Shown here piece by piece: positions 9,751 through 40,438 of a DNA stretch of 64,000 bases. A program made the position numbers and the translations under genes. The stretch comes from Streptomyces sp. C10-9-1 (GTDB lineage Bacteria > Actinomycetota > Actinomycetes > Streptomycetales > Streptomycetaceae). How positions within the stretch are numbered: position 1 is the first letter of the stretch; each line of letters begins with the position of its first letter. The DNA is taken from NCBI RefSeq assembly GCF_024497955.1, contig NZ_JANHKP010000018.1, positions 62,001 through 126,000 on the forward strand. Reading direction: 5' to 3'. The notes beneath the pieces are model-generated. The model had not been told where the DNA came from. It saw nothing but the letters and a program-made list of their open reading frames with translations, and ran no database searches.

Positions 9751-10380
9751 TCAGCGCGGGCGGCGGCAGTGCACGTAGAGCTGGGGTTCGGGCGTGGCGA
9801 GCTCCGTCGCCGGGGTGAACTCCTCCTCCCGGACCTCGGCCACGCTCAGCCCCGCCTCCTCCACCAGGTGCACGAACGCCTCGGTGGAGAAGCTGGTGAG
9901 GGTCACCTCGTGGCCCATCCAGCGGCCCTCGACTCCGTCGAGGTCGAGGGGGACGGTGGCGAGAGCGCAGACGCCGCCGGGCACCAGCGCGGCGGCCGCC
10001 CTGGCAAGGACGGCGCGCTGCTCGGCGCGGGTCATCTGGAGCAGGCTGAAGTAGGAGCAGACGCCGTCGTAGTGGCCCGGCTCCGGCTCGTGGGTGCGGA
10101 TGTCGGCGAGGAGGAAGCGGGCGTCGGGCACATGGCGCGAGGCCAGCTCGACCATGACCGGTGACACGTCGACGCCCGTCACCCGGTGCCCGGATCCGGC
10201 GAGGGCGGCGGCGACGGGCCTGCCGGTGCCGGACCCGATGTCGAGGACCCGGCTCCCGGGCGGCAGTTCGCCCAGGAGCCAGGCCACGCTCTGCCTGCGC
10301 CCCTCGGAGGCGGCGAAGGCGCTCTCGTACTCCTCCGCGATCGCGTCGAAGAGACGGGCCGCGGGCGGCGGTTGCTGCAC
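9751..10380 (-). CDS. Class I SAM-dependent methyltransferase
   Basis: The 209-residue protein has the canonical SAM-binding motif VLDIGSGTGRPVAAAL, the acidic motif II VTGVDVSP, and post-motif FLLADIRTHEP with the YDGVCSYFSLLQM motif, an arrangement usual for small-molecule methyltransferases. No additional substrate domain is visible. It is 136 bases downstream of the 170-residue unknown and may belong to the same unit as the adenylate-forming enzyme and the KSGCIS-repeat peptide, in which case a methylation tailoring step is possible. The substrate cannot be inferred from sequence. Confidence 0.88.
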   Translation of the reverse strand: MQQPPPAARLFDAIAEEYESAFAASEGRRQSVAWLLGELPPGSRVLDIGSGTGRPVAAALAGSGHRVTGVDVSPVMVELASRHVPDARFLLADIRTHEPEPGHYDGVCSYFSLLQMTRAEQRAVLARAAAALVPGGVCALATVPLDLDGVEGRWMGHEVTLTSFSTEAFVHLVEEAGLSVAEVREEEFTPATELATPEPQLYVHCRRPR

Positions 10381-10516: not shown

Positions 10517-11029
10517 CTACGGCCCGTCCGGGAGGTCGATCTCCGCGATCTCCTCCAGGGACATGTCCAGTTGCCGGTGGAGGAAGCGGACGATCGTCCA
10601 GTGCGGCAGCGCCTCCTCCTCGAACGGCCCGAACGCCCGGCAGTACAGGGGGATCCAGCGCAGCGCCTCCTCCACGACCTCCTCGCGCCCGGGCTCGCGC
10701 TGGTAGTCCTGGTAGGCGATGCTGCGGTGCTCGATGAGGTAGCCGCCGGGAAGCCGCTCCTCGCAGAGGGCCCGGTACTCGCGGGTCTGGAGGATCAGGT
10801 AGTGCCAGATCTCGTCCACGGCCTGCTCGACCGGGAGGAACAGTCCGGAGAGCCGCTCGCGGTGGAGCGAGACCAGGTACAGGTAGCGGAGGCATTCGAG
10901 TACCTGCCGTTCGACGAACGCCTTCGGGGGGCCGTCCCCGGCGGAGAAGTGGGCCACGACCTCCTCGTGGAGGTCGTGGCCGAGGAGGGTGCGCAGGTCC
11001 TCGGCCGTCGTCTGCGGTGGTGCGCTCAC
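10517..11029 (-). CDS. Conserved protein with DExWH-type motif (DUF1399-like)
   Basis: The 170-residue, mostly helical protein is not assigned a function. It contains VEQAVDEIWHYLILQTREY and RALCEERLPGGYLIEHR, which resemble the D-E-x-W-H motif of glycine-rich-domain (DUF1399) proteins, where the His/Asp/Glu set may bind metal. The GTG start at 11029 has a GAGGGAGAG ribosome site. The gene lies 82 bases downstream of the adenylate-forming enzyme on the same strand and is probably cotranscribed with it, so a partner role in peptide or small-molecule tailoring is possible. This is context, not demonstrated homology. Confidence 0.7.
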   Translation of the reverse strand: MSAPPQTTAEDLRTLLGHDLHEEVVAHFSAGDGPPKAFVERQVLECLRYLYLVSLHRERLSGLFLPVEQAVDEIWHYLILQTREYRALCEERLPGGYLIEHRSIAYQDYQREPGREEVVEEALRWIPLYCRAFGPFEEEALPHWTIVRFLHRQLDMSLEEIAEIDLPDGP

Positions 11030-11111
11030 GTCTCTCCCTCGAGGTGCGGTGCGGTGCCGCCGGCGCGTCGGCGCCGGGGCCTCGCGGTGGGGTGCCGGTT
11101 TCCCGGCGCGG

Positions 11112-12368
11112 TCAGCGGCTCGTGTCGAGCCAGGCGTACTTGCCGGATCGGCCGATGGGGACGTGGTCGCGGTGCTCCAGCGCGCAGCGGCGTCCGACGA
11201 GGGCGCCGACGGCCCCTGCCAGTTCCCCGGCCACGGGCGGTGCCAGCGGGGCTCCGTCGAAGGTGGTGTACGACAGACGGGCGTCCCGGTCGCCGTCGAC
11301 GCGGAGCCGGTGGACGAAGACGGCGGGGGAGATCCCGGCGACGCAGTCGTCCAGGTCCCCCTGGGCGATCGGGCCCCGGCGGCCGGTGCGCAGCGCTCCT
11401 GCGGGCAGCAGTTCCTTCTCCCGTCCGCAGAAGCGCTCGATCCGCTCCGGGTCCGGGGTGCCGTCGAGGGTCCGCACGCAGTCGCCCGAGCGGTAGCGGA
11501 TCAGCGGCATGTAGGGGTTGCGGACGCTGGAGACGATCAGGCTGTAGATGTCGCTTCCCGGGGTGACGGGCAGGAGTTCGACGCTCATCCGGTCGAGGTG
11601 GGGGTGGTACCGGCCGTGGCGGTCGCTGTAGTAGAGGTAGCCGAGTTCGGTGCTGCCGAAGAGGTCGACGACCGGGCAGGCGAAGTGCCGCGTCAGGAAG
11701 CGCCGGACGTTGGTGGGGGTGTACTCGTAGGCGTGGACGATGCTGGCGGGCCGCGGGAGGTCCTCCCACAGGCCCCACCGGCGGGCCTTGAGGACCAGAT
11801 GGGCCAGGTGGTAGCCGGAGCAGTCGAGGTGGTACCAGCCGCGGGGGTGCGCCCGGCGGGCCTCGTGGATCTCCGCCACCATCCGTTCGACGTCGGAGCG
11901 CTCCCACTGCGCCGGGTCCAGGCGCAGGTTGAGGTACACGGTGCGGTCGTCGAGCCTGCGGTCGCGCAGCGACGGCACCGGTTCGGGCGTGGCACCGCGT
12001 TTCCCGGCGTTGGTGCGTGCGACGTGCTCCGTCGCCAGCACGGTGGTCAGGGAGACGCGCTCGCAGCCCTGCTCCCAGGTGAAGGCGATGTCCGGGTGCT
12101 CGCTCCAGAGCCTGTAGTAGGAGTGCAGCAGGAAGTACGGGGGCCGGATGATCTGCATCCTGGCGTGGTTGGTGCCGGTGGAGAGCACGAACTCCGCCTC
12201 GCCCTCGGCGAGCGCGGCAGCCAGTCGCGGCGTCATCCAGTTGCCGGGGAACCCCCGGGCGATCTCGGGCTTCTCCAGGACGGGGAAGCTGCCCGCGGCA
12301 ACCGACGCGCGGTAGATCGGTATGTCCCTCACCTGTTCGACGAACTCTGCCGGCGGTTGACCGTGCAC
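11112..12368 (-). CDS. Adenylate-forming enzyme (PaaK/LuxE-like)
   Basis: This 418-residue protein has the landmarks of phenylacetate-CoA ligase/LuxE-type acyl-activating enzymes: FVLSTGTNHARMQI (phosphate-loop region, S-T-G-T), HAYEYTPTNVRRFL, VVDLFGSTELGYLYY (A5-type motif), YRSGDCVRTL and GREKELLPAG. Such enzymes adenylate a carboxylic acid and pass it to CoA, a protein or an amine. The start is GTG 12368, preceded by an AGGGGG site, rather than upstream in-frame codons in low-complexity sequence. It follows the 51-residue KSGCIS-repeat peptide by 143 bases on the same strand. A tailoring role for that peptide is inferred from position; no acyl carrier or acyltransferase is adjacent. Confidence 0.78.
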   Translation of the reverse strand: MHGQPPAEFVEQVRDIPIYRASVAAGSFPVLEKPEIARGFPGNWMTPRLAAALAEGEAEFVLSTGTNHARMQIIRPPYFLLHSYYRLWSEHPDIAFTWEQGCERVSLTTVLATEHVARTNAGKRGATPEPVPSLRDRRLDDRTVYLNLRLDPAQWERSDVERMVAEIHEARRAHPRGWYHLDCSGYHLAHLVLKARRWGLWEDLPRPASIVHAYEYTPTNVRRFLTRHFACPVVDLFGSTELGYLYYSDRHGRYHPHLDRMSVELLPVTPGSDIYSLIVSSVRNPYMPLIRYRSGDCVRTLDGTPDPERIERFCGREKELLPAGALRTGRRGPIAQGDLDDCVAGISPAVFVHRLRVDGDRDARLSYTTFDGAPLAPPVAGELAGAVGALVGRRCALEHRDHVPIGRSGKYAWLDTSR

Positions 12369-12511
12369 GCGAGCACCCCCTGTGGACCGGTTGGCGGATT
12401 GCGGATTCACTGCCGGCGAGGGCCGGGGTCCCTTGCGGAATCCCTGCCGGGAAAGGGGCCGGGGGCCCTGGAGGCACGCCCGGCCCATCCCGCTCCCCCG
12501 TCAGCCGCGGT

Positions 12512-12667
12512 TCAGGAGATGCAGCCCGACTTTCCGGCGGCGCTGATGCAGCCGGACTTCGGAGCCGCGCTGATGCAGCCGGACTTGGCCGAACCCTGGG
12601 CCGAGTTGACGGCCACCCACTTCTGCCAGACGGCGTCCTGCGACATCTTCGCGATCAGCTTTTCCAT
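12512..12667 (-). CDS. Candidate RiPP precursor peptide with three KSGCIS repeats
   Basis: A 51-residue peptide starting at ATG 12667, with a strong GGAGGG ribosome site 4 bases upstream. The first ~27 residues (MEKLIAKMSQDAVWQKWVAV, then NSAQGSA) look like an amphipathic leader. The remainder is a nine-residue unit KSGCISAA(P/G) repeated, ending in KSGCIS as the last six residues. Short length, leader-like N-terminus, Ser/Cys-rich repeated C-terminus and adjacent tailoring-type enzymes are the usual marks of a multi-core RiPP precursor. No lanthionine, lasso, thiopeptide or radical-SAM enzyme is adjacent. I do not recognise the family; a structural or regulatory small protein is the alternative. 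Confidence 0.72.
   Translation of the reverse strand: MEKLIAKMSQDAVWQKWVAVNSAQGSAKSGCISAAPKSGCISAAGKSGCIS
12515..12586 (-). repeat. 27-bp tandem repeat encoding KSGCIS cores
   Basis: Two full 27-base units and one 18-base unit encode residues 28-51 of the candidate precursor. The DNA repeats (GCTGATGCAGCCGGACTT on the + strand) are almost identical, indicating recent duplication or selection for homogeneous cores. Confidence 0.9.
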
Positions 12668-12724
12668 GCGACCCTCCGAATAGGAACATAGGAACGACGG
12701 CCATTGATTGTGGCGCGGTGACAG

Positions 12725-12754
12725 ACCGTAAAGCCCAGACCAAGTCACTGTCAA
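12725..12754 (-). promoter_or_regulatory. Vegetative-type promoter of the KSGCIS peptide gene
   Basis: On the minus strand TTGACA (12754-12749) is followed after 18 bases by TACGGT (12730-12725), matching the HrdB consensus TTGACA / TAnnnT. The predicted transcript starts near 12718, about 50 bases before the peptide ATG. This supports the peptide gene as the first cistron of the minus-strand unit. Confidence 0.6.
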
Positions 12755-13430: not shown

Positions 13431-14024
13431 ATGAAGCCCCTGATCGACCGGGCACGCTCCTTCACGGCCCATGTGGCCGAGCATTCCGAGGAGTTCCGCG
13501 CCCTGGAGGCCGGCCAGCGCCCCGAGGTGCTCTTCATCACCTGCTCCGACTCCCGGGTGGTGCCCGCCCTCATCACCGGCGCGCGGCCCGGGGAGCTCTT
13601 CGAACTCCGCACCGCCGGAAACGTCGTGCCGGAGTACGGTGCCGACCGGCCCTGCGCGGAGGCCGCCACCGTCGAGTACGCGGTGGAGGTGCTCGGCGTG
13701 CGCGACGTCGTCGTCTGCGGCCACTCGCACTGCGGCGCGGTGGGCGCCCTGGTCCGCTCCGACGACCTCTCCGCCGTCCCCTCCGTACAGGGGTGGCTGG
13801 AGCGGTCGACCCCGCGCCCCGCGGGCGGCCCGGGAGTCCGCCCCGACCTCGCCGAGTCCGTGCAGGACCATGCGCTCACCCAGCTGCAGCGCCTCCACGC
13901 GCACCCCAGCGTGGCGAGGCGGGTCGCGGAGGGAGCCCTGTCCCTGCACGCCTGGTACTACGAGGTCCACACGGGCGCCGTGCGGACCTACGACACCGGC
14001 AGCGGATCCTTCAGGCCGCTGTGA
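13431..14024 (+). CDS. Beta-class carbonic anhydrase
   Basis: A 197-residue cytoplasmic enzyme that interconverts CO2 and bicarbonate. The beta-class zinc site is complete: Cys38 in ITCSDSRV with the Asp40/Arg42 dyad, and His98 and Cys101 in CGHSHCGAV. RTAGNVVPEYG is the second conserved family motif. The start ATG at 13431 is preceded by AGAGAGG and puts MKPLIDRARSF at the N-terminus as usual for the family; an upstream in-frame ATG lacks support. The next gene, 64 bases downstream, is a SulP transporter, a pairing that suggests joint bicarbonate handling. Confidence 0.95.
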   Translation: MKPLIDRARSFTAHVAEHSEEFRALEAGQRPEVLFITCSDSRVVPALITGARPGELFELRTAGNVVPEYGADRPCAEAATVEYAVEVLGVRDVVVCGHSHCGAVGALVRSDDLSAVPSVQGWLERSTPRPAGGPGVRPDLAESVQDHALTQLQRLHAHPSVARRVAEGALSLHAWYYEVHTGAVRTYDTGSGSFRPL

Positions 14025-14088: not shown

Positions 14089-15546
14089 ATGTTATCCCCC
14101 CTCGGCAACACCTCCGACGTCCGACGGGACGTCCTGGCGTCGCTGGTCGTGTTCCTGGTCGCCCTGCCCCTGTGTGTCGGCGTCGCCGTGGCCTCCGGCG
14201 TCCCCGCCGAGCTGGGCCTGATCACCGGCATCGTCGGCGGGCTCGTGGTCGGTGCCCTGCCCGGCAGCAGCCTCCAGGTCAGCGGCCCGGCCGCGGGACT
14301 GACGGTCCTGGTCTACGAGGCCGTGCAGACCTTCGGCCTCGCCGCACTGGGCGCCCTCGTGCTGGTCTCCGGACTCCTCCAGATCGGCCTGGGAGCCCTG
14401 CGGTTCGGCCGTGTCTTCCGCGCCATCTCCGTCTCCGTCGTCCACGGGATGCTCGCGGGCATCGGCCTGGTGCTGCTCTTCGGGCAGCTCTACACGATGG
14501 CCGGGCTGGAGCAGCCCCGCTCCGGCTTCGAGAAGATCATCGGTGTGCCCGGGCTGGTGGCCGACGTGCTCACCTCCCGGCAGGCACTGACCGCCTCGGC
14601 ACTCGGCCTGGGGACCATCGCCGTCCTGGTCCTCTGGAAGAGACTGCCGGCCCGCGTCCGGGTACTCCCCGCTCCCCTCGCCGCGGTGGCCCTGGCCACG
14701 GCCGTGGCCGCCGCCGGGGGCCTGTCCGTCCCGCGGGTCGAGGTACAGGGGCTGCTGTCGGCCGTACAGCCCCCCGGCGCTTCGGCCTTCGCCGCCCTGG
14801 CAAGCCTCGCCGCGGTCGGCACCGTGCTCGCCTTCGCGCTGATCGCCTCGGCCGAGAGCCTGTTCAGCGCCGCCGCCGTCGACAGGATGCACAACGGCAA
14901 GGGCACCGAGTACGACAAGGAGCTGATGGCGCAGGGAGTGGGCAACACGCTGTGCGGCGCGCTCGGCGCCCTGCCGCTGACCGCCGTCATCGTCCGCAGC
15001 TCCGCCAATGTCCAGGCGGGTGCCAGGACGAAGCTCTCGCGCGTCCTGCACGGGCTGTGGCTGGTGCTGTTCGCGGCACTGCTACCCGCGGCCATCGGGA
15101 TCATCCCGCTCGCCGCGCTCGCCGGAGTCCTGCTCCACGCCGGCTGCAAGCTCGTCCCCACCGGGGAGTTCCTTCCGCTGTGGCGCAGGCACCGGGGCGA
15201 GGCGCTGGTCCTGGCCGCCACGGCGCTGGCCATCGTCGCCGTCGGGATGTTCGAGGGCGTGCTCCTCGGCCTGCTGCTGGCCGTGGTCAAGTGCGCCTGG
15301 GAGACCTCCCAGGTGCAGGTCGGCGTGCACGAGCTGACCGACGGCCGGCTCATCGTCTCCATCACCGGCTCGGCGACCTTCCTGCGCCTGCCGCGGCTGC
15401 TGGAGGCGCTGGAGGCGATCCCGCAGGACCGGCCGGTCGAGCTGGACCTCACCGGGGTCCGCCACCTCGACCACGCCTGCGCCACCACGCTCGACACCTG
15501 GGCGCAGCGGCGCGGGACATCGGTCGCCACCCTGACCAACGCCTGA
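14089..15546 (+). CDS. SulP family anion (bicarbonate/sulfate) transporter
   Basis: The 485-residue membrane protein has the SulP core: RRDVLASLVVFLVALPLCVG, GVPAELGLITGIVGG, QVSGPAAGLTVLVYEAV, and about 12-14 transmembrane segments, then a short STAS-like C-terminus (RPVELDLTGVRHLDHACATTLD). Members import bicarbonate or sulfate, often coupled to sodium or protons. Its direct linkage to a beta-carbonic anhydrase favours bicarbonate. Compared with full-length SulP proteins the STAS part is short, ~60-70 residues. A strong hairpin terminator follows the gene. Confidence 0.92.
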   Translation: MLSPLGNTSDVRRDVLASLVVFLVALPLCVGVAVASGVPAELGLITGIVGGLVVGALPGSSLQVSGPAAGLTVLVYEAVQTFGLAALGALVLVSGLLQIGLGALRFGRVFRAISVSVVHGMLAGIGLVLLFGQLYTMAGLEQPRSGFEKIIGVPGLVADVLTSRQALTASALGLGTIAVLVLWKRLPARVRVLPAPLAAVALATAVAAAGGLSVPRVEVQGLLSAVQPPGASAFAALASLAAVGTVLAFALIASAESLFSAAAVDRMHNGKGTEYDKELMAQGVGNTLCGALGALPLTAVIVRSSANVQAGARTKLSRVLHGLWLVLFAALLPAAIGIIPLAALAGVLLHAGCKLVPTGEFLPLWRRHRGEALVLAATALAIVAVGMFEGVLLGLLLAVVKCAWETSQVQVGVHELTDGRLIVSITGSATFLRLPRLLEALEAIPQDRPVELDLTGVRHLDHACATTLDTWAQRRGTSVATLTNA

Positions 15547-20130: not shown

Positions 20131-21078
20131 GACGATCTCACGGACGGATCCGAGAGACAGTCCCCAGCGGCGCCGCTCCCGCACCCCGGGCGTCCCACCC
20201 GTGCGGATCGACCGCCCGGTCGGCCGCCGAAGGCGCCGCAGCTCCCCGGCTCCGCCGCCGGGACGGCCGGGAGCCGGGGGCCTCCCGGGCACCGGCTCCC
20301 GGTGGCCGCAGTGCCGGCGCCCTCCTGCGCGTGCGACGGTGGCGGCCGGGGGCGCCCGGTGCGGGAGCCCCGCATGCAGGCAGCGGTGACGACGCCTCAG
20401 CCCCGGGGCGTGCTCCCGGCCGCGCCGCGGGCGCGGCCCGCCGGAGGTCTGCGCGGGGCTGCCGACGGCCCTCCGGGGCACCGCGCGGGAGCGCGGTCGG
20501 GGCGGCCCGTCGCCGCCTCACCGGACCGGTCCGGGGTGCTCCCCCCGGTGCACACGGGCGGCGGCGCCCTGCCCGCACCGCCCCCGGCCGCCGCCTCCCC
20601 CACCGCCCGCCGGGGGTCCGGGCGCCGCGGAGGCGGAGGCCCGTCCGCCCGCGCCGCGGTCCCGTGCCGCGCCGGGGAAGTCGGCGGCCCCGTGTGTGCG
20701 GCGCGCCGCACACGCTTCCCCGGTGCACCGGTTACCCGTGCGTTCCGCACGGCGCAGTGGTGACAGCGGTGACTGTTCCGGCCCGTCCGCCCCGTGACAC
20801 CGTTTCTCCTGTCACCGACCGGAAGGGAAACGGGCGGGAACCAGGGCCTTGCCGGAGTCTGAGACGCGGACCGCCACTTCTACGACGCACCGTCCGGAGA
20901 ACCCGGGACCCGACGCCGGAGGCACTCCCGTGCACTCCGTTCTCCGCGCCGGTCGAAACCATTCGGCAGCGTCGACGACACCGTGCGCCCGCTGCGGCGG
21001 GTGATGCCGGGCGCGCACGGTCCACATGTTCCGAAGGCATAGTCCAATCTGCGGTCCTCGCGGTGGAGAGGGATGGGC
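20131..21078. other. Long intergenic region upstream of lanL, with an inverted repeat
   Basis: About 950 bases without a supportable gene; frames read as low-complexity Arg/Pro/Gly. An inverted repeat GTGACA-N10-TGTCAC at 20794-20815 lies ~265 bases before lanL, and a related GTGAC pair lies just upstream; these are possible operator sites. The lanL promoter is not clear by eye. Confidence 0.5.
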
Positions 21079-23751
21079 ATGACGAGCCAGGCAAGCGAAG
21101 TCGAACTCCAGGACCTGCTGGACCGGTCGCTGGACGCCACGGGGCAGGCCGTGCGGTGGACCGTGGACACGGACGCGATGTGGTGCCGTCTGACACCCGC
21201 CTCCGCGGCGCCGCCCGAGCAGGGCTGGAAGCTCCACGTGTCGGCCACGCCCGCTTCCGCTCCCGCGGTGCTGGCGCGTTGCCTGGAGGTGCTGCTGCCC
21301 CGGGAATCCATGTTCAAGTTCGCCCGGTCCCTGGAGCAGGTGAGCGCGCTCAACTCCCGTGCCACGCCGAGGGGCAACTCGGGCAAGTTCATCACCGTCT
21401 ACCCCCGCTCGGACGCCGACGCGGCCGCGATCGCGCTGGAGCTCCACCGGGCCACGGCGGGACTCGCCGGCCCGCGGATCCTGTCCGACCAGCCGTACGC
21501 CGTGAACAGCCTGGTGCACTACCGCTACGGGGCGTTCGTCGGCCGTCAGCGGCTCTCCGAGTCGGGCCTGCTGGTGTGGTACATGGAGGACCCGGACGGC
21601 AACCCCGTGGAGGACGTCCGCACCGGCCGCTACTCGCCGCCGGCGTGGGCTGTGAGCCCGTTCCCGGCCTCCGTGCCCGCCCCGCCGGCCGCGGAGCGGG
21701 CCACGGCGGACCCGGTGCTGCTGGGCGGCCGCTTCTCGGTGCGGGAGGCGATCCGCCACACGAACAAGGGCGGCGTCTACCGGGGGACGGACGTCACCGC
21801 GGGCGTGCCGGTGGTCATCAAGGAGGCCCGGCCGCACGTGGAAGCCGACGCCTCCGGATCCGACGTGCGGGACTGGCTGCGCGTCGAGGCCCGGGTGCTG
21901 GAGTTCCTCGACGGCTCGGGGCTGGCGCCGCGGCTCCTGGCGATGTTCGAGCACGGCGGACACCTCTTCCTGGCCGAGGAGGAGATCGAGGGCGTCCCGC
22001 TGCGCAACTGGGTCGCCGAGCGCTTCCGCGACGTGGGCGGCGAGCGCTACCGCGCCGAAGCCCTGGCCATGGCGGGGCGTCTGGTGGACCTCCTCGCCGC
22101 GGCCCACGGCCTGGGCTGCGTCCTGCGGGACTTCACGCCCGGCAACATCATGGTCCGGCCCGACGGTGAACTGCGCCTCATCGACCTGGAGCTCGCCGTC
22201 CTCAAGGACGACGTCCCGCTTCCGACCACGGTGGGGACTCCCGGCTTCAGTGCCCCCGAGCGGCTGGCGGGCGCGCCGGTCTCGCCGACGGCCGACTACT
22301 ACAGCCTGGGTGCCGCCGTGTGCTTCGTCCTCACGGGCAAGGTCCCCGGTCTGCAGGCCGAGGAGCCCGCGACCAGGACCGCGCACGAGCGGCTCGCCGG
22401 GTGGCTGGCCGCCTGCGACGACGTGCTGCGGCTGCCCGAGGGCCTGATCGAGATGATCCTCGGGCTGATGGCGGACGAACCCGCCGAGCGCTGGGACCCC
22501 GACCGGGCCGGCGCCGCCCTTCGCCGGGCGGCACGGGGACGTCCGGGCCGGGCCGCCGCGGTCCCGGCCGACCGGACCCCGCGGTCCGACGCGACGCAGG
22601 GCGCGGTGGCGGGGATGGTGGACCACCTCATCGACTCGATGACCCCGCAGGACGAACGCCGCCTGTGGCCGGTGTCCGTCAGAGCGGGGGAGACCGACCC
22701 CTGCACGGTGCAGCAGGGTGCCGCCGGTGTCCTCGCGGTCCTGACCCGGTACTTCGAGTTGACCGGCGACCAGCGCCTGCCGGAGGTGCTCTCCACCGCG
22801 GGGCACTGGATGGCGGCGCGGACGGACACCCGCTCCACACGGGCCGGCCTGCACTTCGGCGGCCGGGGAACCGCGTGGGCGCTGTACGAAGCCGGCCGTG
22901 TCCTCGACGACCGCGTGCTCGTCGAGCATGCGACGGCCCTGGCCCTGGCCCCCCAGGAACCGGCGCCCCACCACGACATCACCCACGGCCGGGCGGGGAG
23001 CGGACTGGCCGCCGCCCACCTCTGGCACCGCACGGGGGACCAGCGTTTCGCCGAACGCGTCGTCGAGGCGGCCGACGCGCTGGTCGCCGCCGCGACACCC
23101 GAGCCGTCCGGCGTCAGCTGGCCCGCGCCTCCCGAGGTGGTCACCGGGAGCGTCGGTGAACGCTACCTCGGCTTCGCCCACGGGACGGCCGGCATCGGAT
23201 GCTTCCTGCTCGCCGCTTCCGCCGTCACGGGCCGTCAGGAGCACCGGGACCTGGCCCTGGCGGCGGGAGACGCGCTGGCCGCCGCCGCGCTGACGGTCGG
23301 CGGGGCGGCGCAGTGGCCCTCCCGAGCCGGTGACGTGCCCACCGCCCCGTACTGGTGCCACGGTTCGGCAGGAATCGGCTCCTTCCTGCTCCGGCTGTGG
23401 CAGGCCACCGGCGACGATCGGTACGGCGAGCTCGCCCGGGGTGCGACCAGGGCCGTCGTGGAGCGTGCCTCCCGGGCCCCCCTCGCCCAGTGCCACGGAC
23501 TCGCGGGCAACGGCGACTTCCTCCTCGACATGGCCGCCGCCACGGGGGACGCCGCCCACGGCGCGTCGGCCGAGGCCCTGGCCCGCCTCATCACCGCCGA
23601 ACAGATCCACCGCGACGGCCACGTCGTCTTCCCCAACGAGTACGGGGACGTCTCGACGGGCTGGAGCGACGGGTCCGCAGGAATCCTCGCGTTCCTCCTG
23701 CGGACCCGCCACACGGACTCCCGGCTCTGGATGATCCAGCAGCCGGGCTGA
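21079..23751 (+). CDS. lanL: Class IV lanthipeptide synthetase LanL
   Basis: A ~890-residue three-domain enzyme. Residues ~1-205 form the phosphoSer/phosphoThr lyase region; ~210-470 a kinase-like domain (GGVYRGTDVTAGVPVVIKEA, RDFTPGNIMV catalytic loop, LIDLELAV); ~500-890 a LanC-like cyclase. The zinc ligands are present: Cys760 in YWCHGSAGIG and Cys805-His806 in QCHGLAGNG. Retained ligands separate class IV (LanL) from class III (LanKC). It phosphorylates and eliminates Ser/Thr in the LanA core, then closes thioether rings. ATG 21079 is preferred to ATG 21073 because GGAGAGGG is optimally spaced from it. The precursor follows 41 bases downstream. Confidence 0.95.
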   Translation: MTSQASEVELQDLLDRSLDATGQAVRWTVDTDAMWCRLTPASAAPPEQGWKLHVSATPASAPAVLARCLEVLLPRESMFKFARSLEQVSALNSRATPRGNSGKFITVYPRSDADAAAIALELHRATAGLAGPRILSDQPYAVNSLVHYRYGAFVGRQRLSESGLLVWYMEDPDGNPVEDVRTGRYSPPAWAVSPFPASVPAPPAAERATADPVLLGGRFSVREAIRHTNKGGVYRGTDVTAGVPVVIKEARPHVEADASGSDVRDWLRVEARVLEFLDGSGLAPRLLAMFEHGGHLFLAEEEIEGVPLRNWVAERFRDVGGERYRAEALAMAGRLVDLLAAAHGLGCVLRDFTPGNIMVRPDGELRLIDLELAVLKDDVPLPTTVGTPGFSAPERLAGAPVSPTADYYSLGAAVCFVLTGKVPGLQAEEPATRTAHERLAGWLAACDDVLRLPEGLIEMILGLMADEPAERWDPDRAGAALRRAARGRPGRAAAVPADRTPRSDATQGAVAGMVDHLIDSMTPQDERRLWPVSVRAGETDPCTVQQGAAGVLAVLTRYFELTGDQRLPEVLSTAGHWMAARTDTRSTRAGLHFGGRGTAWALYEAGRVLDDRVLVEHATALALAPQEPAPHHDITHGRAGSGLAAAHLWHRTGDQRFAERVVEAADALVAAATPEPSGVSWPAPPEVVTGSVGERYLGFAHGTAGIGCFLLAASAVTGRQEHRDLALAAGDALAAAALTVGGAAQWPSRAGDVPTAPYWCHGSAGIGSFLLRLWQATGDDRYGELARGATRAVVERASRAPLAQCHGLAGNGDFLLDMAAATGDAAHGASAEALARLITAEQIHRDGHVVFPNEYGDVSTGWSDGSAGILAFLLRTRHTDSRLWMIQQPG

Positions 23752-23792
23752 CAGGGACCCCCTGTCGACACCACGAAGAGAAGGAGATAGTC

Positions 23793-23948
23793 ATGGAGAA
23801 CCGCGACCTCGAACTGCTGGCTCACCTGCACGCCCTTCCGGAGACCGACCCGATCGGCGCCGACGGAGCCGCGTTCGCCGACACGTGTGCCTGCGTCGGC
23901 CTGCTCACGCTCCTCAACACCGTCTGCGTGGGCATCAGCTGCGCCTGA
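23793..23948 (+). CDS. lanA: Class IV lanthipeptide precursor, venezuelin/streptocollin type
   Basis: A 51-residue precursor with an AGAAGGAGAT ribosome site. The leader begins MENRDLELLAHLHALPETDP and the core covers TCACVGLLTLLNTVCVGISC-A (residues 31-51), very close to remembered VenA/streptocollin sequences. Thr31, Thr39, Thr43 and Ser49 are the dehydratable residues and Cys32, 34, 45 and 50 the ring partners, allowing up to four rings. It lies directly between lanL and the ABC exporter. Differences from venezuelin as I recall it (for example Ala33 and Val46) would make this a congener. Confidence 0.95.
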   Translation: MENRDLELLAHLHALPETDPIGADGAAFADTCACVGLLTLLNTVCVGISCA

Positions 23949-24103
23949 CCAGGCCGCAGCCCGCGCGGATCCGATCCCACCCGGCGGCCCCGCCGACCGC
24001 TCCGCTGTTGACGAGGCACTGAACGCCGGGCACCCGTAGGCCGGCAACACCCCGTGCACCCGCATCGCCAGCCGATCAGGGCAGCACGAGGGAGCCGGCC
24101 GGC

Positions 24104-24174
24104 CTCCGGCCGGTGGCCGCCCCCGTGGCAGCCACCGGCCGGAGCATCGTGCCCCCGCCCTGGCGGGGGCACGA
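24104..24174 (+). terminator. Tandem hairpins between lanA and the exporter
   Basis: Two consecutive perfect stem-loops: a 14-bp stem (24104-24117 with 24131-24144) and a 13-bp stem (24147-24159 with 24162-24174). They lie in the 312-base gap after the precursor. They may terminate or attenuate read-through so that precursor mRNA exceeds transporter mRNA, a common RiPP arrangement. Confidence 0.7.
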
Positions 24175-24260
24175 AAGCACCCGCCCCCGAGCACCACACC
24201 GCCCCTCCGACGTACCGCACGCCCAAGTCCGTGGACGCCACCCAGCAGACGAGGACCTGA

Positions 24261-25337
24261 GTGACCATGCAGCCCCACGCCGGTGCCGATGCCCCCGAAC
24301 GGGCGCCCCTCCCGACCTCCGCCACGGCCCCGGAGGGTGCGCGGCCCGAAGCGCGGGGGCCGTACGCCATCAGCACCCGCGGCCTGGTCAAGAGCTACCC
24401 CGGCCCGGACGGCGGCGTCACTCCCGCCGTGCACGGCCTGGACCTCGACGTGCACCAGGGCGAGACCTTCGCGTTCCTCGGCCCCAACGGCGCGGGGAAG
24501 TCCACCACGATCTCCCTCCTGTGCGCCCTGGCCCGCCCCACCGCCGGAACGGCCACGGTGGCAGGCGTCGACGTCCTCACCCACCCGGGCCAGGTCCGCC
24601 GCCAGGTCGGCATGCTCTTCCAGCACAGCGCACTCGACATGGAGCTGACGGTGCAGCAGAACCTGCGCGTCCACGCCCGGCTCTACGGCATGAGCCGCCG
24701 CGACGCCCACCGGCGCACCACCGAGACCCTCGACGCCATCGGCCTCGGCGACCGGCGGCGGGCCCCGGTCCGCACCCTCTCCGGCGGCATGCGCCGCCGC
24801 CTCGAACTCGCCCGCGGCCTCCTCCACGAGCCGCGGGTCCTCTTCCTCGACGAGCCCACCACCGGGCTCGACCCCCACGCGCGCGCCCAGGTCTGGGACT
24901 ACCTGCGCCAGTTGCGCGAGCGGCAGGGGACCACCCTCTTCATCACCACCCACTACCTGGACGAGGCCGAGAACTGCGACCGCCTCGCCATCATCGACGG
25001 CGGGCGCCTGGTCGCGCAGGGTCCGCCCGCCGCCCTCAAGGCCGCCATCGGCAACGACCGGGTGGTCCTGCGCACCCACGACGACCCTGCCGCCGACCGC
25101 GTCGTGCGCCGCGCCGCCCCGCCGGGCACCCTTACCACCCCCGGCCCGGACGGGATCAGCCTGCGCCTGCCCGACGGCAGTTCCTGGATCCCCCGCCTGT
25201 GCGCGGCTCTCGCCGCGGAGGGCATCCCCGTCCGGGCCGCCTCCGCGACCCCGCCGACCCTCGACGACGTCTTCTTCCACCACACCGGCCGCAGCATCCA
25301 CACCGCGGGACCCAAGGCGGCGGGTGAGGGCCTGTGA
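24261..25337 (+). CDS. ABC exporter ATP-binding protein (LanT-like)
   Basis: The 358-residue ATPase has Walker A GPNGAGKSTT, Q-loop in MLFQHSALDMELTV, signature LSGGMRRRLELARGL, Walker B VLFLDEPTTGLD and H-loop TTHYLDEAE, the drug/peptide-export (DrrA/CcmA) type. A ~35-residue N-terminal extension precedes the domain. The GTG start at 24261 has GAGG 7 bases upstream; ATG 24267 is in frame. It overlaps the permease start by GTGA. As part of the lanL-lanA cluster it most likely powers export of the modified lanthipeptide; leader removal would need a protease elsewhere, as no C39 peptidase domain is present. Confidence 0.93.
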   Translation: MTMQPHAGADAPERAPLPTSATAPEGARPEARGPYAISTRGLVKSYPGPDGGVTPAVHGLDLDVHQGETFAFLGPNGAGKSTTISLLCALARPTAGTATVAGVDVLTHPGQVRRQVGMLFQHSALDMELTVQQNLRVHARLYGMSRRDAHRRTTETLDAIGLGDRRRAPVRTLSGGMRRRLELARGLLHEPRVLFLDEPTTGLDPHARAQVWDYLRQLRERQGTTLFITTHYLDEAENCDRLAIIDGGRLVAQGPPAALKAAIGNDRVVLRTHDDPAADRVVRRAAPPGTLTTPGPDGISLRLPDGSSWIPRLCAALAAEGIPVRAASATPPTLDDVFFHHTGRSIHTAGPKAAGEGL

Positions 25338-26206
25338 CCGCCCCCGCCGTCACCGCGCCGGGAAACCCCGACGGCCACGCCGGCCCGCATCCGGCACCCC
25401 CGAGCCGCCTGAGGCGGGAACTGCGCGCGGTCCACGCCCTGGTCCACCGCGACCTGCTGCGCCTGTCCCTGCAGCGCACCCACACCGCGCTGATGCTGAT
25501 CCAGCCGGTGCTCTACCTCTTCATCCTCGGAGGCGGTCTGGCCGCCCTGATCCCCACCGCCGCGCTCGGTGTGGGCTACCAGCTGTACCTCTTCCCCGGC
25601 ATGCTGATGATGACCGTCCAGAGCCCCGCCATCATGGTGGGCATCCGCCTCATCACCGACAAGCAGACCGGGTACCTGCGGGAACTCCTGATGGCCCCGG
25701 TCAGCCGCGCGACCCTGCTCCTGGGCAACTGCGCGGGCGGCACCGTGGTCGCCACCGTCCAGGGCGCCGTCCTGCTCGCCCTGGCCGGCGCGGTCGGCCT
25801 GCCCTACGACCCGCTGCTGCTGGCCCTGCTCCTCACCGGCATGATCCTGGCCTCCTTCACCATCACCGCCCTGGCGCTCGCCCTGGCCGTCAGCCTCGGC
25901 CGCGCCGAGCTCTTCCACATGCTCCTCGGCCTGGTGATGATGCCGCTGCTCTTCCTCTCCGGCGGCTTCTTCCCCCTCGACAACCTCCCCGACTGGGCAC
26001 GCGGACTGGCCGCCCTGAACCCCCTCGCCTACGGCGTGGACCTGCTGCGACGCTCCATCAGCCTGAGCGTGCCCCACGAGGCGACCACGGTCGGCATCGA
26101 GTGGTTCGGCCACCAGCCCCCGCTCCTGTTGGAAGCCGGGGTCCTCCTCACCGCGGGCGTCCTCGCCCTGCTGTACGCCACCCGGCGCTTCAGCCGCCCC
26201 GAGTGA
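25334..26206 (+). CDS. ABC-2 type permease
   Basis: A 290-residue membrane protein with six predicted segments and the ABC-2 signature FLSGGFFPLDNLPDWARGLAAL. Its cytoplasmic N-terminus (~50 residues) is Pro-rich. It pairs with the ATPase whose stop it overlaps, forming an exporter for the adjacent lanthipeptide. Family members with this fold (DrrB, NodJ) form homodimers with two ATPases. After this gene there is a 1.2-kb gap to the LuxR-type regulator. Confidence 0.93.
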   Translation: MTAPAVTAPGNPDGHAGPHPAPPSRLRRELRAVHALVHRDLLRLSLQRTHTALMLIQPVLYLFILGGGLAALIPTAALGVGYQLYLFPGMLMMTVQSPAIMVGIRLITDKQTGYLRELLMAPVSRATLLLGNCAGGTVVATVQGAVLLALAGAVGLPYDPLLLALLLTGMILASFTITALALALAVSLGRAELFHMLLGLVMMPLLFLSGGFFPLDNLPDWARGLAALNPLAYGVDLLRRSISLSVPHEATTVGIEWFGHQPPLLLEAGVLLTAGVLALLYATRRFSRPE

Positions 26207-37350: not shown

Positions 37351-38681
37351 CCCTGCCGACCGACCGGGAGTGCACTGCGGCGATCACCGCCATGGCGGCC
37401 GAGGCCGCCTACGGGGCACGGGAGTTCGGGGCAGAGGTGCATCTGCTGGTGCTGGACTCGTCCGCACCGCCGGTGCGCGCCGCGCACCGGCGGGCCGTCG
37501 ACGCGCTGCCGCAGTCGCCCGGGGTGGTGGTGCACCACCTCGACGAGGACGCCCAGCGGGCCTTCCTGCGACGGGTGATCGCCGCCTCCGGCGCCCCCGC
37601 GCCGGAGCGGCTGCTCCCCCTGATGCTGCCCACCGGGGTGAGCTACGGCGCCTGCACCAACCGGGCCTTCCTCCTCGCCGAGGCCCTCGGTTGCGCCTCG
37701 GTGCACCGCAGGGACTCCGACAGCCGCTACCAGCACCTCCACGGCGAGCCCGTGTACCCGATCCACCACGAGCTCGCCACGCTGGGGCGCCCGGCCGCCG
37801 AGGTCACGGGCCGGGTCGACCGCACGCGGCTCGACCCCGCCTGCGCCGGGCGGCCGGTGGCCCTGGCCGGCGGGTCCTTCATCGGCGAGCTGTCCGTGGA
37901 CGTGGCCGAGATCGCACGCCTGGACCCGGAGGTCTACCACGAGGTCGTGGGCCTGTCGGTGCCCGCGGACTGTCCTCCGCCCTGGCGCCGCAACCTGGTC
38001 GAGGAGGCGTTCCGGGGCGCCGGGACCGAGCCGTTCACCGCCGACCGCACCACCCTGACCCTCGTCAGCCCCACACGGGTCGACATGTGCAACATCGCCC
38101 TCTCCCGGGAGGTGTACGGCGCCGTGCCGCTGCCGCCCGCGACGGACACCATCGGCAGCGACTACTTCCTCCTGCACCTCGTCCGCAGCGCCCGGCTGCC
38201 GGGTGTCCTGCACAACCGGCACATCGTCAACTTCCACACCCCGGAACGGCGCTCCGACGCCGGGTTCCTCGCCTACCAGGAGCGCTTCGCCAAGTTCCTG
38301 CTCGCCTCGGGCCCCATGGGCGAGGTCCACGCGCGGATGGCGGCGGCCGGGGACGCGCTGCTCGACCCTGCCGGACGCGTGCGCACCGGCGCCGTCGCGC
38401 GCCTGGTCCGGGAGGCCGCCCGCAGCGGTCCCGACGGCAACGCCGCCCGGCTGGACGTCCTCGACCGCTGCTACCGCTCCCTGGGGGGCCGGTACACCGC
38501 GGCGGCCGAGCGGTTCGCCGCCCGCAGGGACGGCCTGCTCGCCGAGGTGCGCGCGGACATGGCGGACTTCGCCCTGCTCCTGGACGCCTGGCCGCTGCTG
38601 GCCGCGCACGCGAAAGGAACCGCAGTGACCCTCCCCGAGCCCCCCTCCCACGGGACCGCAGCACCGGCGGCCCTGCTGTGA
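37332..38681 (+). CDS. DUF6271-like protein with DxD-type motif
   Basis: The 449-residue soluble protein begins HRVCLTLPTDRECTAAI and has LLVLDSSAPPVRAAH and LLPTGVSYGACTNRAFLLAE, then a D-S-D motif (Asp128-Asp130, RRDSDSRYQ). The layout recalls GT-A type glycosyltransferases with a metal-binding DxD, and I recall similar proteins labelled DUF6271 in Streptomyces. Its reaction is unknown. The GTG start lies inside the dioxygenase gene and the stop overlaps the condensation gene by GTGA, so it is firmly part of the operon. Confidence 0.72.
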   Translation: MHRVCLTLPTDRECTAAITAMAAEAAYGAREFGAEVHLLVLDSSAPPVRAAHRRAVDALPQSPGVVVHHLDEDAQRAFLRRVIAASGAPAPERLLPLMLPTGVSYGACTNRAFLLAEALGCASVHRRDSDSRYQHLHGEPVYPIHHELATLGRPAAEVTGRVDRTRLDPACAGRPVALAGGSFIGELSVDVAEIARLDPEVYHEVVGLSVPADCPPPWRRNLVEEAFRGAGTEPFTADRTTLTLVSPTRVDMCNIALSREVYGAVPLPPATDTIGSDYFLLHLVRSARLPGVLHNRHIVNFHTPERRSDAGFLAYQERFAKFLLASGPMGEVHARMAAAGDALLDPAGRVRTGAVARLVREAARSGPDGNAARLDVLDRCYRSLGGRYTAAAERFAARRDGLLAEVRADMADFALLLDAWPLLAAHAKGTAVTLPEPPSHGTAAPAALL

Positions 38682-40438
38682 GCGCCCCGCCGCCGCGCGG
38701 TACCGCCCCCGCGCCCGGCACCGCACCCACCCGGCGGACCGCGACCTGCGCCTACCACGGCGGCGGTGCCCGCCGGGGCCCCGTCACCATGGGCCAGGCG
38801 AACATGATCCGCTGCATCCTGCGGGACGAGCCGGACGCCATCAACATCCACGACGTCTGGCCGGTGCCCGAGGGTGCCTCCGAGGACGCCGTCCTCGACG
38901 CGCTGCGCGCCCTCGCCGTGAGGCACGAGGCGCTGCGGACCACCTTCCCGCACGAACCCGGGACCGTGCCGGGCGAGCAGGTCGTGGCCGGCGCGGGGCG
39001 GTTCACCGTCACCGTGCTGGAGCACGGCGAACTCCCCGCCCCCGCCGCCGAGTACGCCGAGTCGGTGGCCCGTGACGCCCGGTCGGAGCGCTTCCGGCTG
39101 GAGAGCGACTTCCCCTTGCGCCCCGTCCTGCTCACCCACGCCGGGCGGCCCGTGTTCCTGGCCCTGGCGGCCAGCCACGCCCTGACGGACGGCAGCGCAC
39201 TCGGCATCCTGCGCGAGGAGTGGCTGACCCTGCTGTCCGGCGGGACACTGCCCGAGGCCACCGCGCTCACCCCGCTCGACCTGGCCGCCGAGGAGGCGAG
39301 CCCGGCCGGGCGGCGCAGGTCGGCGGACGCGCTGCGGCACTGGGAGCGGATCCTGCGCACGGGGCCGCAGGCCGTGTTCGCCGAACCCGGCGCGGTGGGC
39401 ACCGAGATCTCCGCACAGGGCCTGACCCTGCGCTCCGCCCGAGGCGCCCGGGCGCTGGCCGGCGCCGCCCGGCGCACCCGGGCACTGCCCAACACGGTGC
39501 TGCTGACGGCCTGGTGCCTGCTGACCGCCCACCGGGCCGGCCAGCAGGAGTGCGTCACCGCCGTACCGACCTCCAACCGCTTCCGGCCCGCCCTCGCCCG
39601 CTCGGTGAGCACCCTCTCCCAGGACGCGCTGCTCGCCCTCGACGTGCGCAAGCCGTCCTTCGACGCGGTCCTCGCCGCCGCCTGGGGAGCGGCCCTGAAC
39701 GCCTACCGGCACAGCCGCTTCGACGCGCTCGCCCTGTGGGACATGATCCGCCGGGTCACCGGCGAACGGGGCAGCCACTTCGCGCGGGACGTGGTCCTCA
39801 ACGACATCAGCGCCCTGCCCGCGACGCTCGCCGGGGCCGCGGCACCCGACGGGGACACCCCGGAACTCGAACTGGTCCGGGGGCCGGAGCAGGCGCTGCC
39901 GACGCGGCTGCTCGGCTTCGTCTACGAGACGGACCCGGTGCTGCGCCTCGCCCTGTGGGCCGACCCGGCGCTCTTCCCGGGGCGTGCCGCGGAGGACTTC
40001 GCGACCGGCCTGGTGCGGCTGCTGGAGGCGGCGGCCGAGGGCGACGTGCCGCTGGCGGACCTCACCGAGGTCACCGGTGTGCGTCCGGTCGAGCGCGGTC
40101 CGGGGTGGACGCGGGTGGACGGCTGCTGGGTCGAACCGGAGGCGGTGGCCCGGACGCTGAGCGCGGCTCTCGGGGGGCTCCCCGTCGAGGTCGAGGTCAC
40201 CGGGGCGTGCGAGGCGGAGGACGCCGCCCCCGCTGCGCCGCTCCTCACGGCGCGCATCGCCTGCGAGGACGGCGGCCTGACGCCCGCCCGGGCCCATGCG
40301 GCGCTGATGGCCGCCCTGCCGGGCCGCCCCGGGGTGCTCGCCCCGCACCGCTACGTGATCGTGCAGGGCCCACCGCAGCAGCCCGCCTCGGCGGGGCCGA
40401 TTCTCAGGGAAGGAACCGGCCGCGACCGGGAGATGTGA
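38678..40438 (+). CDS. Stand-alone NRPS-type condensation domain protein
   Basis: A 586-residue protein containing one condensation-domain fold (~residues 40-450) and an extra C-terminal part. The catalytic motif HHxxxDG appears as S-H-A-L-T-D-G with His167 and Asp171, so the second, catalytic His is retained and the first is Ser. Other condensation motifs are MGQANMIRCIL (C1-like) and RHEALRTTF (C2-like); VPTSNRFRP and RDVVLNDIS are later ones. No adenylation or thiolation domain is fused. It could condense the aminoacyl-carrier thioester with a second amine or acid. Low-complexity Ala/Pro/Thr sequence fills the first 30 residues. Confidence 0.85.
   Translation: MSAPPPRGTAPAPGTAPTRRTATCAYHGGGARRGPVTMGQANMIRCILRDEPDAINIHDVWPVPEGASEDAVLDALRALAVRHEALRTTFPHEPGTVPGEQVVAGAGRFTVTVLEHGELPAPAAEYAESVARDARSERFRLESDFPLRPVLLTHAGRPVFLALAASHALTDGSALGILREEWLTLLSGGTLPEATALTPLDLAAEEASPAGRRRSADALRHWERILRTGPQAVFAEPGAVGTEISAQGLTLRSARGARALAGAARRTRALPNTVLLTAWCLLTAHRAGQQECVTAVPTSNRFRPALARSVSTLSQDALLALDVRKPSFDAVLAAAWGAALNAYRHSRFDALALWDMIRRVTGERGSHFARDVVLNDISALPATLAGAAAPDGDTPELELVRGPEQALPTRLLGFVYETDPVLRLALWADPALFPGRAAEDFATGLVRLLEAAAEGDVPLADLTEVTGVRPVERGPGWTRVDGCWVEPEAVARTLSAALGGLPVEVEVTGACEAEDAAPAAPLLTARIACEDGGLTPARAHAALMAALPGRPGVLAPHRYVIVQGPPQQPASAGPILREGTGRDREM

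Follow-up and report, generated by a model that had tools for sequence, protein, structure and literature searches.

A 51-residue peptide with tandem KSGCIS cores, a PaaK-like adenylate-forming enzyme (C0) and a GRDP/DUF1399-like protein (C1) form a gene module that is obligately conserved in about one Streptomyces species in eight and in two other phyla, and that is a probable new class of RiPP. It was found in a 64,000-nucleotide stretch of DNA from Streptomyces sp. C10-9-1, the whole of which is called the window below. On balance we favour the view that the locus is a small RiPP-like multicore module in which the AMP-ligase and the GRDP-like protein mature the peptide; that the peptide is a precursor modified by some chemistry, whatever its nature, is likely. 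The features of the locus are as follows, with the basis of each in brackets.

12725..12754, minus strand: promoter TTGACAGTGACTTGGTCTGGGCTTTACGGT, with -35, 18-base spacer containing a conserved CTTGG, and -10 (sequence and relatives)
12672..12677, minus strand: ribosome site GGAGGG, 4 bases 5' of the ATG (sequence)
12512..12667, minus strand: precursor peptide gene, 51 aa, stop included (ORF, translation, relatives)
12587..12667, minus strand: leader-like part, residues 1-27, ME.LI.KM.QD.VW..W.A.NS... (alignment; W14, W17, N21 and S22 invariant)
12569..12586, minus strand: core 1, KSGCIS (translation, alignment, core statistics)
12542..12559, minus strand: core 2, KSGCIS (same basis)
12515..12532, minus strand: core 3, KSGCIS, ending at the final residue (same basis)
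11112..12368, minus strand: C0, PaaK-like adenylate-forming (ANL) enzyme, 418 aa, GTG start (profile, motifs, model)
10517..11029, minus strand: C1, GRDP/DUF1399-like all-helical protein, 170 aa (model, profile, motif alignment)
13431..14024, plus strand: beta-carbonic anhydrase, divergent neighbour and recurrently recruited accessory (Pfam, loci, tree, motifs)
14089..15546, plus strand: SulP-type (bicarbonate/sulfate) transporter, partner of the carbonic anhydrase (conserved pairing)

The expression signals of the peptide gene, whose translation is MEKLIAKMSQDAVWQKWVAVNSAQGSAKSGCISAAPKSGCISAAGKSGCIS, were analyzed in the window and in relatives. TTGACA-N18-TACGGT is the sole match to TTGACA-N17-19-TANNNT in the 64 kb, where 0.02 are expected, and the promoter with its CTTGG spacer element lies 5' of the peptide gene in nearly all Streptomyces relatives; a stricter sigma-70 scan of the window found no promoter. 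A ribosome site of the CGGAGGT type is likewise kept in relatives. The peptide with its own promoter, good ribosome site and three KSGCIS cores, as proposed by an earlier sequence-only reading of this DNA, is thus confirmed by the sequence and its relatives. The unmodified peptide has a calculated [M+H]+ of 5140.55; for unmodified SGCIS and KSGCIS the calculated values are 466.197 and 594.292. The region between peptide gene and C0 gives no sign of a terminator or attenuator, and structure there is not in excess. A palindrome, GCGCCAAAnTTGGCGC, occurs 5' of the peptide promoter at other loci (for example L048:10265-10280), exact in 3 loci and in looser forms in more; it may be an operator.

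The distribution of the peptide was examined in 394 genomes of the same genus, which gave 50 matches, 49 of them convincing; the weak fiftieth (G392) is accompanied by neither C0 nor C1 in the stretch inspected. Clear homologues in 49 of the 394 genomes, together with a median dN/dS of 0.25 among 153-base homologues of the gene, argue against a chance ORF; to judge by this ratio the peptide is under purifying selection. The module is present in about 12% of Streptomyces species (about one in eight), and also in Kitasatospora, Kutzneria, three Sorangium cellulosum and two Paraburkholderia genomes, so that it spans Actinomycetota, Myxococcota and Pseudomonadota. Among 297 genomes sampled across the phylum Actinomycetota, the sole match was the window's own genome. 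C0 proteins from Kitasatospora, Kutzneria, S. cellulosum and Paraburkholderia share 63-69% identity with that of the window, a level which suggests that the whole module moved by horizontal transfer. Supposed plasmid-borne copies were rejected, being matches to distant PaaK-like proteins only.

The three genes keep the same strand and order across the three phyla. Starting from the peptide, C0 was found directly downstream in 46 of 46 loci (window included) and C1 in 45, the exception being a contig end; starting from C0 in a separate collection, the peptide was upstream in all of the 80 best loci and C1 in 79 of them, again with a contig end as exception. A precursor gene beside conserved enzyme genes is therefore found in both directions, and the pairing of peptide and activating enzyme that the sequence-only reading asked to be sought across genomes holds. 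The constant position of the peptide gene beside an AMP-ligase gene in three phyla weighs against another view of the peptide, namely as an unmodified signal or metal binder that controls the production of a separate metabolite by C0 and C1. A short gene, rich in thiols and under a conserved promoter of its own, would suit such a role; by eye the peptide has no signal sequence, and no linked receptor is common across clades, and we regard the view as decidedly improbable.

Peptides of the family were aligned, and M1, L4, I5, M8, W14, W17, N21, S22, K28, G30, C31, S33, G39, C40 and S42 are invariant. The 99 distinct peptides contain 311 cores, with a six-residue consensus K-x-G-C-I-S in which K stands two residues before G. 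K is found in 303 cores, C in 308, I in 294 and S in 310; since cores were picked by the pattern G[CYR][IVA][SC], glycine is counted by construction and the counts of the other residues are constrained. Each peptide carries 2-7 cores (three in 85 of the 99), mostly spaced by 9, 8 or 7 residues. In 96 of the 99 the chain ends exactly at the last Ser of GCIS, the other three ending in Ser-Arg. Peptides of Sorangium cellulosum contain five to seven KAGCIS repeats, mostly spaced by K or R. The family thus combines a conserved leader-like half with repeated cores, the two parts expected of a RiPP precursor. In this it resembles multicore precursors such as those of cyanobactins and thiovarsolins, which also have a leader-like N-terminus and tandem near-identical cores in variable number, whereas here no YcaO, protease/cyclase, radical SAM, LanB/LanM or ATP-grasp protein is conserved. 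No curated family model of Pfam or NCBIfam names the peptide, and NCBIfam families of RiPP precursors gave no meaningful E-value. A leader of the Nif11/NHLP type was considered and rejected, a single member matching with an E-value of 0.12.

C0 was described in the sequence-only reading as a PaaK-like activating enzyme, a description that its motifs, catalytic lysine and structural matches bear out. Pfam gave no meaningful match and NCBIfam weak PaaK-like ones, while a search of the PDB with the family profile retrieved PaaK-like ligases (E 4e-7). The AlphaFold model (pLDDT 82) has the ANL fold and is matched by Foldseek to NatL2, AjiA1 and PaaK1 with E ~1e-14 and TM ~0.6. The adenylation motifs STGTxH, FGSTELGY, RYxSGD, GRxxELL and GxSGK (K410) are kept almost throughout 123 C0 sequences; the P-loop is atypical, STGTNHARM in place of the usual TTG-x-P-K. 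C0 is thus, by motifs and model, a predicted ANL/PaaK-type AMP-ligase with K410 as catalytic lysine. It shares fold and motifs with PaaK1 and with the PaaK-like stand-alone AMP-ligases NatL2 and AjiA1, and differs from them by its low identity (13-19% over the structural matches), its altered P-loop and its constant association with a peptide gene in the loci examined. A conserved Cys183, within LDCS/LDCD, could speculatively serve as an acyl acceptor. The ATG at 12488, which the open reading frame gives as the start of C0, was rejected; the start adopted, GTG 12368, agrees with that of its relatives.

C1 is predicted to be all-helical (pLDDT 84) and has no relative in the PDB by profile or by fold; the family libraries do not name it either. 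D72, W75-H76, T82, Y85, C89 and H101 are invariant, and look like a putative active or metal site. The profile of C1 reaches other streptomycete proteins with the motifs V-D-E-G-W-H-A-L-I-L-H-T-x-x-Y-x-x-L-C and H-H, and the alignment reveals a motif D-x-x-W-H / T-x-x-Y-x-x-x-C / H common to C1 and these distant homologues, which we take, from the motif, to be the bacterial GRDP/DUF1399-like group. C1 differs from that group by 60 C-terminal residues of its own (ALRWIPLY..FGPF..W), by forming a tight family and by the lack of a PF07173 match. PF07173 matched neither the C1 protein nor anything in 61 genomes, its own included; control genomes were unmatched as well, which makes the genome search a weak one. 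The earlier label "DUF1399-like" is consequently approximate: the bacterial GRDP-like motif is present, the PF07173 match is not. Further small GRDP-like proteins of streptomycetes, some with Cys-rich C-terminal tails, occur with no C0 nearby (L202, L204-L208). A C1-like protein from a different family of the order (E 2e-35) lies beside genes that by eye are aminotransferase-like, double ABC transporter and dioxygenase-like (L201:1-12000), perhaps a different biosynthetic cluster.

The neighbourhood was surveyed in 126 loci, which fall into 35 clades at 82% C0 identity and are not 126 independent genomes because the sets seeded by peptide and by C0 overlap. Peptide, C0, C1, an MFS transporter, carbonic anhydrase and SulP are the only genes that recur widely, and no other enzyme family is common to more than a few of the 35 clades. 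C0 and C1 are for this reason the only universal candidates for maturation, and any local maturation enzyme must be one of them. The conserved set includes no protease and no known RiPP recognition domain. The MFS gene is near the module in 91 of the 126 loci and 24 of the 35 clades, usually directly after C1; the window locus itself has none. A methyltransferase gene (9751-10380, minus strand), which the sequence-only reading had included in the set, is present but adjoins the module by chance in this strain: it does not recur there in relatives, is not conserved with the peptide and was rejected as a member of the locus. The MFS exporter, the carbonic anhydrase/SulP linkage, the three phyla, the six-residue core and the Ser chain end all go beyond that reading.

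From these elements a mechanism can be proposed. The short precursor would carry an N-terminal recognition helix and tandem K-x-G-C-I-S cores. An AMP-ligase implies ATP-driven acyl transfer; C0 would adenylate a carboxylate with ATP and pass the acyl group to a core nucleophile (Cys thiol, Lys amine or Ser), or alternatively would activate the Ser carboxylate of a core after cleavage. The fixed core and the exact Ser end likewise suggest either side-chain acylation of each core or activation of the core carboxylate after cleavage. C1 would act as catalytic or substrate-presenting partner through its conserved W-H/T/Y/C/H site; host proteases would free short products, which the MFS pump would usually export, and some lineages would add carbonic anhydrase and SulP, sometimes with a Baeyer-Villiger-type flavin monooxygenase. 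We infer in this way that the peptide is the substrate and is acylated, processed and exported; whether C0 acylates or activates the cores as proposed seems to us evenly balanced.

The repeated cysteines could have another meaning. The peptide might be a carrier on which C0 loads a small acid as thioesters, C1 and accessory enzymes processing the cargo before the MFS exports the released molecule. Transfer of acyl groups to thiols is common among PaaK-like enzymes, small molecules are the usual cargo of MFS pumps, and the peptide offers many identical loading sites with an invariant Cys and a copy number of 2-7; a Baeyer-Villiger-type monooxygenase, moreover, is found in the cluster in 4 clades (flavin monooxygenase with the fingerprint FxGxxxHxxxWP, by eye). 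However, Ile and Ser are conserved about as well as Cys, beyond what a carrier needs, and no cargo-building genes are conserved, so that we consider a carrier unlikely.

Returning to the maturation of the cores by C0 and C1, the carbonic anhydrase deserves attention, as its recurrent capture offers a direct handle on the chemistry or on the target. With SulP it is mostly within ~6 kb of the module in 17 of the 35 C0 clades, in three arrangements (upstream divergent, upstream on the same strand, downstream on the same strand). When the linked carbonic anhydrases are placed on a tree together with unlinked Streptomyces copies, they fall into separate groups, that of the window nesting among unlinked copies (support 99/85); the labels linked and unlinked require several changes on this tree, at least two of them forced by starred branches. 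Genomes of 8-9 Mb usually hold one to three carbonic anhydrase copies, and by our own estimate chance proximity is about half a percent per event. It seems that the pair came to lie next to the module several times within Streptomyces, and that a carbonic anhydrase did so once in Sorangium, where strain So ce26 has a single row that runs from the peptide through C0, C1, MFS and flavin monooxygenase to carbonic anhydrase. In S. filamentosus a divergent row contains a two-component system, carbonic anhydrase, SulP, MFS and monooxygenase. In some clades the pair by the module is accompanied by small exported-looking proteins with a common C-terminal CVFRC tail, located between MFS and carbonic anhydrase (L043:13575-13991, C6; L012, C30). 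In one clade (L043, L040 and relatives) a HypX-like (formyltransferase/enoyl-CoA hydratase-like) protein and a winged-helix regulator, both by eye, lie 5' of the peptide.

This linkage points either to bicarbonate as a substrate or to carbonic anhydrase as a target. In the first case a core amine would form a carbamate, adenylated by C0, and Cys or Ser would close a ring containing a carbonyl, carbonic anhydrase and SulP supplying the bicarbonate. Sua5/TsaC offers a parallel, converting threonine and bicarbonate to a carbamate that is then adenylated. The separate tree clades, the three positions and orientations and the single row of So ce26 all speak for this scheme, which is nevertheless quite improbable in our judgement, since roughly half of the C0 clades lack a carbonic anhydrase close to the module, although one encoded at another site of the genome may act instead. 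In the second case the linked carbonic anhydrase and SulP would be self-resistance copies, and the product, a thiol peptide, would bind the zinc of carbonic anhydrase. The further carbonic anhydrases in the genomes and the long branches (0.75, 0.82) of two linked clades would fit; against this, the linked enzymes have no altered active site, CSDSR and HSHCG being unchanged with no substitution shared among them, and we hold self-resistance to be very improbable. The complete proposal, a new RiPP class in which AMP-ligase and GRDP-like protein modify K-x-G-C-I-S cores, with bicarbonate/CO2 as co-substrate (or carbonic anhydrase as target), to give a widespread family of very small thiol peptides, is tentative and rather unlikely. 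The module itself would give a GRDP-like protein its first biochemical role and provide a PaaK-like ligase that acts on a peptide.

The module was finally compared with known systems. For lanthipeptides, lasso peptides, YcaO and radical SAM products, graspetides, MNIO products and others, the class-defining enzyme is not conserved beside the precursor, and no such family is conserved nearby in the 126 loci, in agreement with the sequence-only reading, which had seen no canonical RiPP enzyme and recognized no described class. Staphylococcal AIP thiolactone peptides (agr) share a short Cys core and a fixed C-terminal residue position; here, in contrast, no AgrB-like protease is conserved, there are several cores instead of one, and a C-I-S ring, with its three residues, would be unusually small. 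Neither the family libraries nor the open-access papers searched yielded a described class: KAGCIS, KSGCIS, AGCISAAP and SGCISAAP were not found, NGCIS and DGCISA gave unrelated texts only among the matches listed, and nothing relevant was found on RiPPs with adenylate-forming enzymes. The main text of the decRiPPter paper mentions no phenylacetate, adenylation or acyl-CoA-ligase family. RiPP classes have mostly been discovered via known modification enzymes; as the module has none, rule-based mining would likely miss it.

Elsewhere the window contains a class III lanthipeptide cluster (21073-26203, plus strand), to which an ABC transporter pair also belongs.

21073-23748, plus strand: RamC-like synthetase of the cluster
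23793-23945, plus strand: candidate lanthipeptide precursor MENRDLELLAHLHALPETDPIGADGAAFADTCACVGLLTLLNTVCVGISCA, 51 aa

A protein with an NRPS-type condensation domain is encoded at 38678-40435 (plus strand).
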